Assembly: GCA_008933995.1 (NCBI GenBank)
Contig: WARS01000015.1
Location: 9,740,861-9,804,860, forward strand
Length of the DNA: 64,000 nucleotides
DNA from: Datnioides undecimradiatus
Taxonomy: Eukaryota; Chordata; Actinopteri; Lobotiformes; Datnioididae
Direction: 5' to 3'
Positions 26,674 through 46,445 of the stretch are shown in pieces. The notes beneath the pieces are model-generated. The model saw only the letters and a program-made list of their open reading frames with translations, made no database searches and had not been told where the DNA came from. The position numbers and the translations under genes are program-made. Numbering within the stretch: the stretch's first letter is position 1; each line of letters opens with the position of its first letter.

Positions 26674-28754
<2,081 letters not shown>

Positions 28755-33075: not shown

Positions 33076-35298
33076 TCAGTAGGTTACATTTTTCCAGGGA
33101 GTCCACTGGCTCCAGGTGGAGAGCACCAGAGAGTCTCTGGAGCGAACCCTCAGCTTGCTGATCCTCTTTGGTATTAGAGCTGATGAAGAACTTCTCTTCT
33201 AAAGTCAGACAGGTCACAGTAAGAAAACCAAATGCAATGGACAGATCCACGGACATGTATATAAAAACACACTTTTTACTTTTGTTTTAGTATAAGTTTG
33301 GGTGTACCTCGCCATTATCTTTCAGTATGTATTCAATCTCATGCTCCAGACTGAAGAAGCTGTGAGGAGTCGACCAGGTGGAGGGTGGATCAATAGTCAC
33401 ATTCAGTTCATGCTCGACCTCCTGACACTTGACAATCTTGGGACTATCTGGTTGAACTGGTCAGAAGAAATATCACAGTTTTTTTTTTTTAAAAAAAAAA
33501 GTCAGTTATCATTAAATCATTAAATTATGTGTGTAAATTGACAAAATGTTTGCTAAAATGATCCAATCTATTTATAAAAAGAACTGACTGATGCTTTTTT
33601 TCTGTTTTTGTACTAACATTTTTATAAGCCATTTTATTGGAATCAAAAAGTTACTTTACTGAACAATTCATCACAGAAAACAACCACTGATTATTTACAT
33701 TAAAATGTTGGATTTCATAATTTAAGGCCATTTTCTTAATAACTGGATGGTACCCTGAGTTTTTCAGTAATTTTGTGATTTTAGATGCTGTTTAATCTTG
33801 ATAATGTTCTGTTAAATGCCTTTAAAGTAGTTCATTTTCACTCAACTTACCAATGTCCCTCAGATAAAAACTCATGGTCTTCCTGAGGATAAAGATTTCA
33901 GTGATAGCCTCAGCAGTGACTTCAAGCATGGTGCTTTCCTCTGCGTAGGGTGACAGGGAGTGGGACAGCTCAAACTGGAATCCCCCATTCAGAGACTGAT
34001 CACTGCTGTTGACCCAGTCACATGACTTCAGACCTTCACTGCTAGAGAGGACAAACTGACACTGAGTGAAATATGCAACTGAGAGAGGTATAATTCTGTC
34101 TCCTTGTTGATCGATCCTCATACCCTAAATGCAATACTTTTGGCCTCTTTACTGTAATTTGTCTGTGTTTGTTTTTTCTTTACCAGTTGTGCCCCAGTCC
34201 AAGACGCACTGCTGTGTATCCATTGGGGGCCCACGTACAGCTGAAGTTACAGTCATAAGACTTTGCCCGACATTGGATTGGAGGATCTATAAGGGACCAC
34301 AATAACAGTGATCACAAGTTTATTGGATATGTTTCAACTTTGTCACACAAAGGGTTAGACAATGTGTAAATATATCCCCACATGCAAGACATTTATGTTG
34401 GAAGTGCATCTGGTTCAGTTAACCGTAAGTCTCATCCTCTAGACAGAGATATTCCACCCAGTCAAATAGGGAGAGAGTTTCGTAACATATCCATCTAAGA
34501 GATTACTGTCAGGATTTGATCAGTGTAATGCATTAAAAATGTAACAAGACACGTAAAATGTAACTCACGTAATTCATCTTCATCCTCAGCTTCCAGCAGC
34601 AGATAGGTTGATGACAACATCTTGTTTTCTCTCCAGCAGCTGTATAGTCCCACCATGGGTACATCTACATCGGACAAGGCCAGATTCTGACCATCCTGCT
34701 GGACATTTTCATCTAAAAAAACATCCTCCACCTCTTCACCATGATGCTTCCATGTGACAGGCCCATCAGCTGTACTGCAGGTCAGTATGACTGGATTTGA
34801 ATTGCTCCTTTTTGCCACCACAACTACACAAACATAACAGAGAGACAGAGACATGCACAAAAACAAATATATTAACACATCAAGAATAACAGATTCTGAA
34901 GCAATCAACCAATTGTACTAGGAATAAAACATGTGAACTAGAGGTGAGATATACAGTTTTCTGGAAATTTGGTGAGTCCATGTGCTCCTGCTAGGGCGAT
35001 GAAGAGAAGCCCAAATGTCCACAGTGACAAGGTCTTCTGAAAGATTGTATAACAGAAATAACAGAAAGAAAATGAATCATTACATGTATGAAAAACTTCA
35101 GTAATTATGATGATTTCACTTTCAATTAAGAAGCAAAGTAACAATATATTCATGAGACAGTTTCACTGGTTGAATGCTTTAAGCTGTGATGTGCTATCAT
35201 CATTTAAAATGACTGAAATAGCAAAGTTGGTATATCCTAGTCTGTCTATTCAAGCTTCTAATTTGCTGCATTGAGTTGCAGCAGTTTTCTCTTACCAT
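33076..35298 (-). CDS. il12b: Interleukin-12 subunit beta (p40), seven coding exons
   Basis: Coding exons on the minus strand: 35298-35296 (ATG only), 35036-34955, 34823-34569, 34286-34184, 34116-33851, 33456-33308 and 33198-33076. The phases close to give 326 residues (human IL12B 328). Exon 2 gives the signal peptide (KTLSLWTFGLLFIALAGAHG). Exon 3 is the Ig-like domain (PVILTCSTADGPVTW, VGLYSCW). Exons 4-5 hold the first fibronectin-type module (CRAKSYDCNFSCTW, CQFVLSSSE, SFYLRDI). Exons 6-7 hold the second, with PPSTWSTPHSFFSL and the cytokine-receptor WSxWS motif as STWSQWTPW. p40 is a secreted soluble receptor-like chain that pairs with p35 or p19 to form IL-12 or IL-23. The start of exon 5 is the least certain boundary (TATGAG used because it keeps phase). 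Fish carry several p40 paralogues; which one this is cannot be told here. Confidence 0.94.
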
Positions 35299-38002: not shown

Positions 38003-39485
<1,483 letters not shown>

Positions 39486-41729: not shown

Positions 41730-44700
41730 ATGGCTTCATTCAAACCAACAAAAATCCAAGTCTATCCTAAACTTGGAGAAAAAGTCACACAAGACACACT
41801 TTACTGGAAAAACTACAAGGTGAGGCTCTTCTACTTTATGATACCACCGTGAGCAACAATAGCGCATCTCTAATTGTGTTTCTCATTCTTAGTAAAGCAT
41901 CTTTGTTTCTCTACTCACAGGCTCCAGTCCAGATAAAAGAATTCGGAGCAGTTACAAACATAGACTTCTCCCCAGTGGCTCCTCATAACTTTGCTGTGAC
42001 AGCATTCACGAGAGTATGTTGGCTTGACTTGTGATTTTTGCTCAGTAATGTTTATTGAATTTAAACAGTGTGTGCGTCACATAATAATTTTGGTTCCAGT
42101 CAGTGCTGAAAAATGAAGTATAACATATCCAGCATTTGTTTGTTTGATTGTTTATCATTCTAACACTGGTTTTTCTACAGGTCCACATTTATGGGCCGTT
42201 CTCCCAGGAGCCAGTGAAGACATTTACACGGTTTAAGGATACTGCATACAGCGGGAGGTTCCGGTCAGACGGTCAGCTGCTTGTGGCGGGATGTGAGGAC
42301 TCCGTGGTCCGGCTGTTTGATGTCAGTGGCAAGGTGGCCCTCAGGATGTTCAAAGGGCACACAAAGTGGGTATCCTTCCTGTCTGATAGTGCTTTAGATG
42401 AACTGTCCTAGCCTGGAGAATGAGTGTTATGGAATATGCTTGATTGCAACACCCTGGTACATGTGGATGTGGTGCTGTTACCAGGTTTTGGAAGTCCCTG
42501 CAGAGTTCATGTTGGAGAAGTTAGGTGAAATCCTTATTCAGAGGAAATGTGTGTAATATCAGTTTCAGACAAGAGCTGCAGTGTGAAGAAGGGAGAGAAG
42601 AAACATACCCACTTCTTGTTTTTTTTTTTGTTTTTTTGTATTCCTAATTTAAGATAAGATAAACCTTATCCCAATCTGGGAAATTTCCACATTGCAGCAG
42701 CAATTTACAAGCCCTCAACATGACAAATAGATAAATGTACAAAACAACAAGTATTTATAAGAGATAAATATATATAAGAAAATATATACAAAAAATAGAA
42801 AGATAAAATAAAGTTTGCTGAAGGTTACCAGTGGCACGGAAGTGTGCAAGTACAAGCTGTGCTTACAGCTTGTCATCTGTCACACACAGATGAGGAGTTA
42901 TAAAGTCTTATAGCTTGTGGCAGGAAAGACTTCCTGTAGTGGTCCTTTAGACAACAAAGCTGCCTGAGCCTTTTAGAGAAGGTACTTTGTTGTCTGTCCA
43001 GTACAGGGTGGAGAGGGTGGTCAGGGTTATCCATAATCGATGGAGCCTTGTGACTAGGTGGCTGTGTCTAATAGAGTTCTTGTTTACCAAAGGTTTTGTT
43101 GGATGATGATTTCTTGAGTGATCCATCGACTGAATTTCACGATGAACTCAATGATTCTGACAACCTGCAAACTGTCCCTCTGGCTTTTTAATGTCTGGTT
43201 GTAAAAATGGGCTGTTTTGAAGCTGGTCTCATTTTATTGTTTTTTTCACAGGGCTGTCCATGTAACAGACTTCACCTCAGACCGTTATCAGATCCTCACC
43301 GGCTCAGATGACTACACCTGTCGACTCTGGGACATCCCGAATGCCACTGAGCTCACCACCTACCAAGAACACACAGATTATATTCGCTGTGGAGTCACAA
43401 GCAAACTCAACAGAGACCTCTTCATTACTGGTGAGATGAAAGCTGCTTTGTGTTTATTAGTGTTATGTTTTCTGCACTATATGCTGCAGAATTTGTACTT
43501 TTTCTTCATTCATCTATCTGTGCTGATTAAAAAACAAAAAGGAAAGAGACAAAAGCTAATAGTCACATTTTTAAACATAATGCATATATTAATATACAAA
43601 TTTTGAATTGGGTACAGAAAAAGTATGCTCTTGAGTTGTTGAAGTGCCATGGCAGATAGAGATTGACGAGGACCAGAATAAGGCAATTTGGTCTTATTTT
43701 GTGAAACTGGAATCAATGCTTTCTTTTTCAGGATCTTATGACCACACGCTGAAACTGTTTGATGCCAGAGTGGATAAGAGTGTGATGACCATGGACCACG
43801 GCCAGCCAGTGGAGAGTCTACTTCTCTATCCCTCTGAGGGACTACTAGTCTCTGCAGGTAAATAAAGTGCCAACTTAAAATCTGTCAACAGTGTTTAAAT
43901 ATTAAAAAATTACTGGAGTGCTCCTTCAGGTAGTTGTGCAGAATATAACCCAAGTAGGAAATTTGATGGGCTGGACTACAACAGCCCATTGTATGCTTGA
44001 TTCAGACTTCAGGAGGAACAAGAGCTAAAAATTATTGTTGCAAATGACAGCATTTCTATTCAGATGTATTATAAGCACTACTTTTCATCCAGGACATTTA
44101 AATTTGAAAAAGCAATGACTGAATCCCTTTTTTTAGGTGGCCGTTATGTGAAAGTATGGGATCTGCTGAAAGGAGGGCAGCCTCTGGTGTCACTGAAGAA
44201 CCATCACAAAACCGTCACCTGTTTGTGTCTCAGCAGCAATGGACAGAGACTGCTGTCAGCTTCTCTGGACAGGTACGAGGACAGGCGTATGTACAACATG
44301 CATGTCTTAAACAATGAAAATCGGAGTCTGCTCTATCTTTTATAACAGGGTCATACTTATAACTATATTACATATTGTGTAATTATATTATGTATTTATA
44401 TGAGCCTGTTTTAATGCTGTCTGCTTGTTTTGTCTTTCAGGCACGTAAAGGTGTACAACACAACCAACTATAAAGTGGTTCACAACTTTGACTACGCAGC
44501 CTCCATCCTCAGTCTTGCTTTGGCTGTAAGAAACTTCGTTCAGCACTTCAATTCGTTCAGCGTTCTTACTGTTGGCTTTCCTTGTTTTCTTCTTTATTAA
44601 ATGTTAAACCATGGTTTTAAATAAGTGAAGCAAAATATATGAAGACTACACGCTTGCTCGTTTTTTACATTCCGCAGATAAGGAAAACTAAACTTTGGTG

Positions 44701-46445
44701 TATTAGCATTTGGAAAGAGAATTTAAATTAGCTTGTATCTTAGTTGCAACCTCATTGATTTGAGAGACCAGGTCTGAGTGCAAAGCGATGTAGCTTCTGC
44801 GGCAGCCAACAGAAATATAGTACTGCCAGAGATTTCAATCTAAAGGAGGTGATGTGGTCCATCCTCTCCTCTTAGTGTTGGCATGATGCTGCAGGGTTTC
44901 CAGAATACAGCAAAGAACAACAACATCAAAGTGAACTGACAAAGATTTTTTTGTTTAACTTTGGACTTTCACTGCCTTTGGATTTGGCCTTTCAGACATC
45001 ACCACAGTCTTTGATTTGTCAGAAACATTCACTCCTATTAAAATGCAAACCCAGCCATAGCCATGCAAAGTATGCAGTGTGCAGGATTTGATATAAAAAT
45101 AACATGTTACATCACAGCGTTAAATGTGGGCCTGGTTGCTGCTCTCAACGCCTGAATTCTCGTCACTGAAACTATGAATGTGTCATTCTTCTCAGCCGGA
45201 TGATGAGTCCATCGTCGTGGGGATGACTAACAGTATCCTGAGTATCAAACACAGGAAAAGTCTTGACGAGTCAAAGGAAATCTCTGATCAACCAAGGCGA
45301 CGGCCGTCATATCGTGTTTTTGTGAAGGGGAAGAACTACGTCCCCAAACAGGTACGTTTAGCAGGTCAGCAGTCTGACACACCATGTGGTCTGTTAAGCG
45401 ATTGTCCCTGCAGACGTACATGCACAGTTCTACAAAAGATGAAGTCAAGCGGCCTGATCATGGCTAATGCTTTTTTTTTTTTTTTTTTATAGTTATTATA
45501 CAGGTGTCATTAGAAAGTTTTTCACAATTTCTCACCTTGGATAATTAATGTTCTCCATCTATTTTTTTTTTCAGGATGATTATCTCATCAGTAAGCCGGT
45601 GAAACAGCATCTGGCCAAATACGACAAGCAGCTCAAGAAATTTAATGTATCAAAGGCTTTGGATACAGCTCTGGAGGTATACATTTCATATTTTTATAAC
45701 ATAAGAAACAATGTTAAATCGGTTGGTATCGTTTTTCATGGGGTTCTTCTAGTTATAAAGGTCAGTGTACAACAGTGTAATGTTTAAGTTTCCTGAAGCA
45801 GCTTTCCTTGTGTGCTAACGAACATTTCAAAAAGGTAATATAATTTTTTTCTTAATTAATATTCACATATATTACATTTTATTTATAGACATGGACAAGA
45901 CTGAGAAAGCCAGAGATCACAGTTGCTGTAATAAAGGAGCTGGACCGAAGAGGAACGTTGAAGAACGCTCTGGCAGGAAGGGATGAACAGGGTCTCTCAC
46001 AGTTGCTCAACTTCTTAATAGGGTAAGATGGATTTTTGAGTAGTGTTTAACAAGTGGTGGCATAGTTAGTTAGCTTATACATAAGGTTGTGTAGCTGTAT
46101 TGTGCCACATTAATAATTAAACCTCTTCCCATTTCTGTCTCCAGGAATTTGGTTGACCCCAGATTTGCTCCTGTCCTTGTAATAGCAACTGAGATGATCC
46201 TGGACATCTATCAGTCAGTCATCGGCCAGTCACCAGTCATAGACCGACAACTTCTGCGTCTGCAGGAGCTGCTGGGGAGAGAGATCGACTACCAGCAGGA
46301 CCTCCTGGAGGTGTTGGGCATGCTGGACACAATGTTTGCCTCCTCCCTTCCCAGGAAGGAGGTGCCATGCTCTGGCATCAGCAGGTCTAATGGCCTGATT
46401 CAGGGAGAAGCAAGTACCTCAAGACCACAGCTGCAGGCCACCTGA
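41730..46445 (+). CDS. utp15: U3 snoRNA-associated protein 15 homologue, eleven coding exons
   Basis: Coding exons: 41730-41819, 41921-42013, 42181-42365, 43252-43430, 43732-43857, 44137-44272, 44441-44525, 45196-45351, 45575-45676, 45889-46022 and 46145-46445. They total 1587 bases, 528 residues (human about 518), with phases closing throughout. The N-terminal two thirds are WD40 repeats ([75 protein letters not shown]). The C-terminal domain follows ([48 protein letters not shown]). UTP15 belongs to the UTP-A/t-UTP part of the nucleolar small-subunit processome, needed for rDNA transcription and early 18S processing. A noncoding first exon ends at 41009. Coding intron 3 (intron 4 counting the leader exon) hosts a snoRNA and a LINE-type repeat. 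Confidence 0.97.
42648..43080 (-). mobile_element. Teleost interspersed repeat fragment, LINE 3' end type
   Basis: It begins on plus with AAGATAAGATAAACC and CCCAATCTGGGAAATTTCC. It continues through TATAGCTTGTGGCAGGAAAG and GGTGGTCAGGGTTATCC, wording I recognise from a very common fish repeat with a GATAA-type tail. Its 3' end is at low coordinates, so it sits on the minus strand within the utp15 intron. The copy is diverged and has no coding content; family naming is from memory. Confidence 0.5.
43098..43164 (+). ncRNA. snord71: Box C/D snoRNA predicted to guide 5.8S rRNA Um14 (SNORD71-like)
   Basis: All parts of a box C/D snoRNA are present: terminal stem GTTG (43098-43101) with CAAC (43161-43164), box C ATGATGA (43103-43109), box D' CTGA (43130-43133), a degenerate box C' CGATGAA (43140-43146) and box D CTGA (43157-43160). 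The guide before D' reads GAGTGATCCATCG. It can pair with 5.8S CGGTGGATCACTC over 13 contiguous positions including one G-U. The fifth base upstream of D' faces U14 of 5.8S, the known 2'-O-methylated site assigned to SNORD71. It lies in a utp15 intron about 87 bases before the 3' splice site, close to the spacing typical of intronic C/D snoRNAs. Human SNORD71 is, as I recall, in a different host gene. Whether it is orthologous or a relocated copy is open. Confidence 0.85.
43858..45195 (+). other. Middle introns of utp15
   Basis: The introns 43858-44136, 44273-44440 and 44526-45195 were read for further box C/D or H/ACA patterns. Only partial matches were seen, such as ATGATG near 44882 and CTGA near 44936 with no terminal stem. 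No repeats recognised. Confidence 0.4.

Follow-up and report, generated by a model that had tools for sequence, protein, structure and literature searches.

Two SNORD71-type snoRNA genes are present in this genome. The one studied here, a box C/D snoRNA in an intron of utp15, is a second, structurally intact and probably working guide gene that would act in parallel to a probable paralogue in an intron of ap1g1. Positions refer to the window, i.e., the whole 64,000 nt stretch of DNA that was analysed, unless a locus is named.

A Box C/D snoRNA in an Intron of utp15

The element reads GTTG-G-ATGATGA-...-GAGTGATCCATCG-A-CTGA-...-CGATGA-...-CTGA-CAAC in the window sequence (Table 1). It has the RUGAUGA C box and the CUGA D box of the box C/D class, a short terminal stem that closes them, and internal D' (CTGA) and C' (CGATGA) boxes. 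All four boxes and the GTTG/CAAC stem, as given in the preliminary description, were found where it had placed them. The C' box deviates slightly from the C' consensus. By our own numbering, G43101 (-1b) and C43161 (-1n) form a pair that adjoins the D box. The folding energy of the snoRNA is ordinary (z -0.18 versus shuffles), and C/D RNAs are not expected to fold more stably than shuffled sequences. When the stretch of 11 nt from C' to D was compared with one 5.8S copy of this genome, no run that spans D+5 reached a length of 8. The motif ACUCA near the D box, which is part of the Rfam SNORD71 consensus, could pair with GAGU of the guide and is absent from the ap1g1 copy; we attach no weight to this pairing.

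The exons of the host gene match residues 1-498 of human UTP15 in order on the plus strand, and the boundaries of the intron were set by reading frame and GT/AG, not by transcripts. The snoRNA lies in sense orientation, with 87 nt between its end and the 3' splice site; exon matches and boundaries thus bear out the earlier statement that it is located in a utp15 intron, about 87 bases from the acceptor. The 60-residue exon 3' of the snoRNA is matched end to end by two UTP15 chains, while the other 58 of the best 60 of 438 matched sequences cover parts of it. Five WD40-repeat proteins outrank the first UTP15 chain by whole-protein E-value for this exon, a ranking that we think is explained by many repeats adding up.

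On the minus strand, opposite utp15, a Pfam scan that covered two of the three frames found exons matching the PA domain (about 26898-27080, E 8e-7), IL12p40_C (about 34075-34278, E 2e-7) and NAC (about 38632-38742, E 1e-18, perhaps BTF3).

Table 1. Features of the utp15 locus and the ap1g1 copy (window numbering, except for the last line).
Feature	Position	Strand	Basis or remark
utp15 coding region	41730-46361	+	exon matches to human UTP15 (7mq8_LJ residues 1-498)
Host intron of utp15, 886 nt, GTGGGT...CACAG	42366-43251	+	separates coding exons 3 and 4 of those traced
Dispersed repeat, same intron	42650-43041	+	at least 39 other places, 76-94% identity
Box C/D snoRNA, SNORD71 kind, 67 nt	43098-43164	+	boxes, guide, Rfam model, genome pattern count
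Terminal stem, 5' arm GTTG	43098-43101	+	last G is k-turn position -1b (k-turn numbering applied by us)
C box ATGATGA	43103-43109	+	sequence
Antisense guide to 5.8S 11-23, D'+5 = U14	43116-43128	+	pairing
D' box CTGA	43130-43133	+	sequence
C' box CGATGA	43140-43145	+	sequence
D box CTGA, then C (GAC motif)	43157-43160	+	sequence
Terminal stem, 3' arm CAAC	43161-43164	+	sequence
SNORD71-type copy in ap1g1 intron	L001 1503-1578 (stem to stem), within G000:C479:5780817-5780896	-	boxes and model

Pairing of the Guide with 5.8S rRNA

Against the human 5.8S sequence, the guide forms 13 contiguous pairs including one G-U, and the D'+5 nucleotide of the snoRNA faces U14. This reproduces the pairing proposed in the preliminary description. 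As is characteristic of SNORD71, the guide adjoins D' and sets D'+5 on 5.8S U14. The numbering of U14 agrees with a passage in PMC8467515, according to which a 13 nt fragment from the 5' end of mature human and mouse 5.8S is followed by a 2'-O-methylated U.

Within the genome itself, three matches to 5.8S were found at E up to 1e-10 among the 39 of 11,685 candidates that were scored, and all three contain GGTGGATCACTC. Twelve guide pairs hold in each of them; at the 13th position they carry T, C or G, which results in a G-U pair, a G-C pair or no pair. The 5.8S at L011 / L014 (start of G000:C18) has T at position 11 and further differences from the human sequence, and motifs of the 5' end of the adjoining 18S were not found in L014; it is perhaps a variant or decaying rDNA copy. 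Two 5.8S-like copies, one without an internal stretch (L012) and one diverging from 5.8S in its second half (L013), are probably pseudogenes. The 5.8S pattern had no matches in viral contigs.

A Second Copy in ap1g1 and the Rfam Model

SNORD71 (RF00576) is the best Rfam model for the utp15 element and matches over its full length, with 23.3 bits versus a gathering score of 34; the covariance-model check suggested in the preliminary description therefore returned the expected family at 43098-43164, below its gathering score. No family reached its gathering score in an Rfam scan of the window. Across the genome the utp15 copy has an E-value of 4.3, which is not significant by the model alone, and at E up to 10 the model also had matches in 5 of 14 prokaryote control genomes, none of them above gathering. 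The genome search at this threshold gave at least two places, the utp15 copy and the ap1g1 locus; two is a lower bound, since 55 of 73,502 first-look candidates were scored. The Rfam table lists RF00576 under type HACA-box, which looks like a labelling slip given the C/D boxes of the SNORD71 consensus.

The copy in ap1g1 scores 26.3 bits (E 0.59 genome-wide) and has a 7 bp stem, a C box, the same guide, D' and D. It is flanked by AP-1 gamma-1 exons on the same strand; the intron has 476 nt, with boundaries set by reading frame, and its acceptor follows the end of the copy after 79 nt. At this locus snoR38 (28.7 bits) and SNORD73 (27.7 bits) exceed SNORD71 in score, but SNORD71 has the best E-value (0.0022), and the element carries the U14 guide. 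The G/C pair beside the D box is also present, again by our numbering.

Neither copy reaches the gathering score. The threshold seems ill-suited to this genome, because the ap1g1 copy falls below 34 bits as well, although it sits in the established host, and annotation by this cut-off would overlook both copies. The utp15 element is named SNORD71-type from its guide and boxes and is not an Rfam-grade member. Boxes, D'+5 geometry and the best Rfam model support its earlier designation as a putative Um14 guide of the SNORD71 kind.

AP1G1 is the host of human SNORD71 according to entries of published tables, and passages of PMC2653536 describe chicken AP1G1 as host of the U14 guide GGgCD1. The utp15 copy does not share this location. 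We do not take an AP1G1 intron as defining for SNORD71, since snoRNA hosts can differ between species (PMC3349704) and a copy in ap1g1 exists. The preliminary description had proposed utp15 as host of the guide instead of the human host gene. This is not supported, because the genome retains an intact copy in ap1g1; utp15 is, as judged from these sequences, an additional SNORD71 host and not a replacement. A C/D guide for Um14 of the SNORD71 kind in a utp15 intron thus stands, while the replacement of the host does not. An expressed SNORD71 elsewhere, with no reads from utp15, had been named as evidence that would speak against the earlier interpretation; of this, one half was found, as another SNORD71-type gene exists elsewhere in the genome.

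Comparison of the Two Copies

From the C box to D' both copies span 31 nt, with identical spacing between C box and guide. Box and guide bases are alike at 23 of 24 positions, the sole difference being A/G at the first base of the C box, while only 2 of 7 spacer bases are alike. The flanks are unrelated: alignments of 100 nt of 5' flank and 80 nt of 3' flank score no higher than the median of 300 shuffles. Because boxes and guide match while spacers and flanks have diverged, we read the two copies as putative old paralogues, both kept by selection; the unlike spacers and flanks also argue against a recent duplication. For selection as well as for common descent we rely on this comparison of sequences. 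Three observations count against our preferred explanation: the Rfam score of both copies lies under gathering, the alignment of the regions after D' is above the shuffle median but below the 95% point, and the terminal stem has 4 bp in the utp15 copy versus 7 in the ap1g1 copy.

This shorter stem, the Rfam score under gathering and the existence of the ap1g1 copy would all fit a snoRNA pseudogene, i.e., a transposed copy that looks intact but yields no RNA, so that all of the guide would come from the ap1g1 gene. We regard such a silent copy as unlikely, since boxes and guide are intact though spacers and flanks are at background level, and both would be expected to be gone from an equally old copy that evolved neutrally. 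The position on the sense strand of the intron, at a distance from the acceptor similar to that of the ap1g1 copy, also speaks against it.

Alternatively, a different C/D snoRNA of utp15 may have converged on the U14 guide, which would be compatible with the same function. The lack of detectable likeness between the copies outside boxes and guide would agree with this, but we consider an independent origin improbable: both copies use a T opposite G13, giving a G-U pair although a C would be the better partner, and this shared choice together with the identical C-to-guide spacing favours common descent of the two copies, which appears likely, not proven. Visual inspection of the sequence next to the utp15 copy showed no poly-A tail. 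A poly-A tail or target-site duplications are uninformative if the event is old, because an old event would have lost both.

Chance Resemblance and the Upstream Repeat

The combination of C box, D box and stem means little by itself, since it is common by chance; it occurs three times in the window (both strands), and shuffles contain it 1.66 times per strand on average. Guide-like stretches in shuffles reach 12 of 13 pairs. Boxes and stem combined with the guide were present at a single place in the window, whereas none of 40 dinucleotide shuffles contained them, with both strands scanned and the guide threshold set at 11 pairs for the window and, more loosely, at 10 pairs for the shuffles. 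The exact pattern of guide and D' has two matches in the whole 581 Mb genome, those in utp15 and ap1g1, and its backwards control has none. With up to two mismatches, 126 matches were found versus 87 for the control; among the 30 of these 126 loci that were checked, only the two exact copies have C box, D box and stem, and no C box is present at the four places with one mismatch. Six places in viral contigs match the guide pattern, and no C box lies within the 45 nt that precede any of them; the genome_contigs collection has no match. A chance origin within intron sequence could appeal to the frequency of boxes and stem, to the E-value of 4.3 for the covariance model alone and to the model's matches in five control genomes; it is very unlikely in view of the shuffles and of the control pattern, which is missing from all 581 Mb.

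An origin of the snoRNA from the many-copy repeat that lies directly upstream and fills much of the intron (40 places scored of 185 candidates, 39 of them elsewhere in the genome) is refuted and hardly credible: among the 39 other copies listed, 30 stop at 43041 and not one extends beyond, so that the repeat ends 56 nt upstream of the snoRNA and does not carry it, and the genome has just two occurrences of the guide pattern.

Proposed Function of the utp15 Copy

The boxes, the pairing with the target, the host and the two exact loci are observed, and for processing, assembly and methylation we draw on general knowledge of C/D snoRNAs. The snoRNA would be trimmed out of the spliced utp15 intron and would bind the C/D proteins 15.5K, NOP56, NOP58 and fibrillarin. 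Its D' guide would pair with 5.8S 11-23, fibrillarin would 2'-O-methylate U14, and the utp15 copy would act in parallel with its ap1g1 paralogue.

Cell pools with a SNORD71 knock-out lose 5.8S Um14 and show altered ribosome function and translation, as passages of PMC12288042 relate from earlier work. Two separately hosted guides would matter for the constancy of this mark. It is a doubtful extension that, in this lineage, the Um14 guide comes mainly from the utp15 copy, or that this copy is regulated as a separate source, with the ap1g1 copy as basal source and the dose of large-subunit methylation tied to utp15 transcription. If true, tissue- or stage-specific Um14 would be possible with two paralogues, and large-subunit methylation dose would be linked to transcription of a small-subunit processome gene.

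Comparison with Known SNORD71 Genes

SNORD71 in fish is already known (fugu), and the utp15 gene is ordinary in kind. Apart from supplementary files, the literature searched held no statement on a SNORD71 hosted by utp15, which we do not claim to be unpublished, and no literature on UTP15 as host gene of an intronic snoRNA was found. A term search of the main text of PMC2653536 gave no mention of UTP15, and the part of PMC3176792 (UTP15/snoRNA/zebrafish) covered here contains no intronic snoRNA.

Huang et al. (PMC5579392) reported 26 vertebrate SNORD71 sequences including fugu, in which nothing outside boxes and guide is invariant except the G/C pair next to the D box; by our numbering both copies have this pair. 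The GAC motif is given there as an m6A site in human SNORD71, and the same numbering assigns it to the GAC of the utp15 copy.

Compared to SNORD71 / HBII-239 (RF00576), the utp15 copy has the same C/D boxes, D' guide GAGUGAUCCAUCG, target 5.8S U14 and G/C pair beside the D box. It differs by its length of 67 nt and 4 bp stem versus an 86-position model, by its host, which is utp15 and not AP1G1, and by a score under gathering. The ap1g1 copy shares with it guide, boxes, C-to-guide spacing, sense intronic position and a similar acceptor distance, but differs in host, in its longer stem and in an unrelated second half and flanks. The case thus represents turnover of snoRNA copy and host, in which an extra, probably working SNORD71 gene is found in a ribosome-biogenesis host and the usual gene is kept. 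According to PMC3349704, one snoRNA gene may sit in different hosts across species, and placental mammals tend to have fewer copies of C/D snoRNAs; the two copies in two hosts found here fit both statements. Chicken GGgCD1, as described in passages of PMC2653536, has, like the utp15 copy, a 13 nt guide to 5.8S U14, but is 98 nt long and located in intron 11 of AP1G1.
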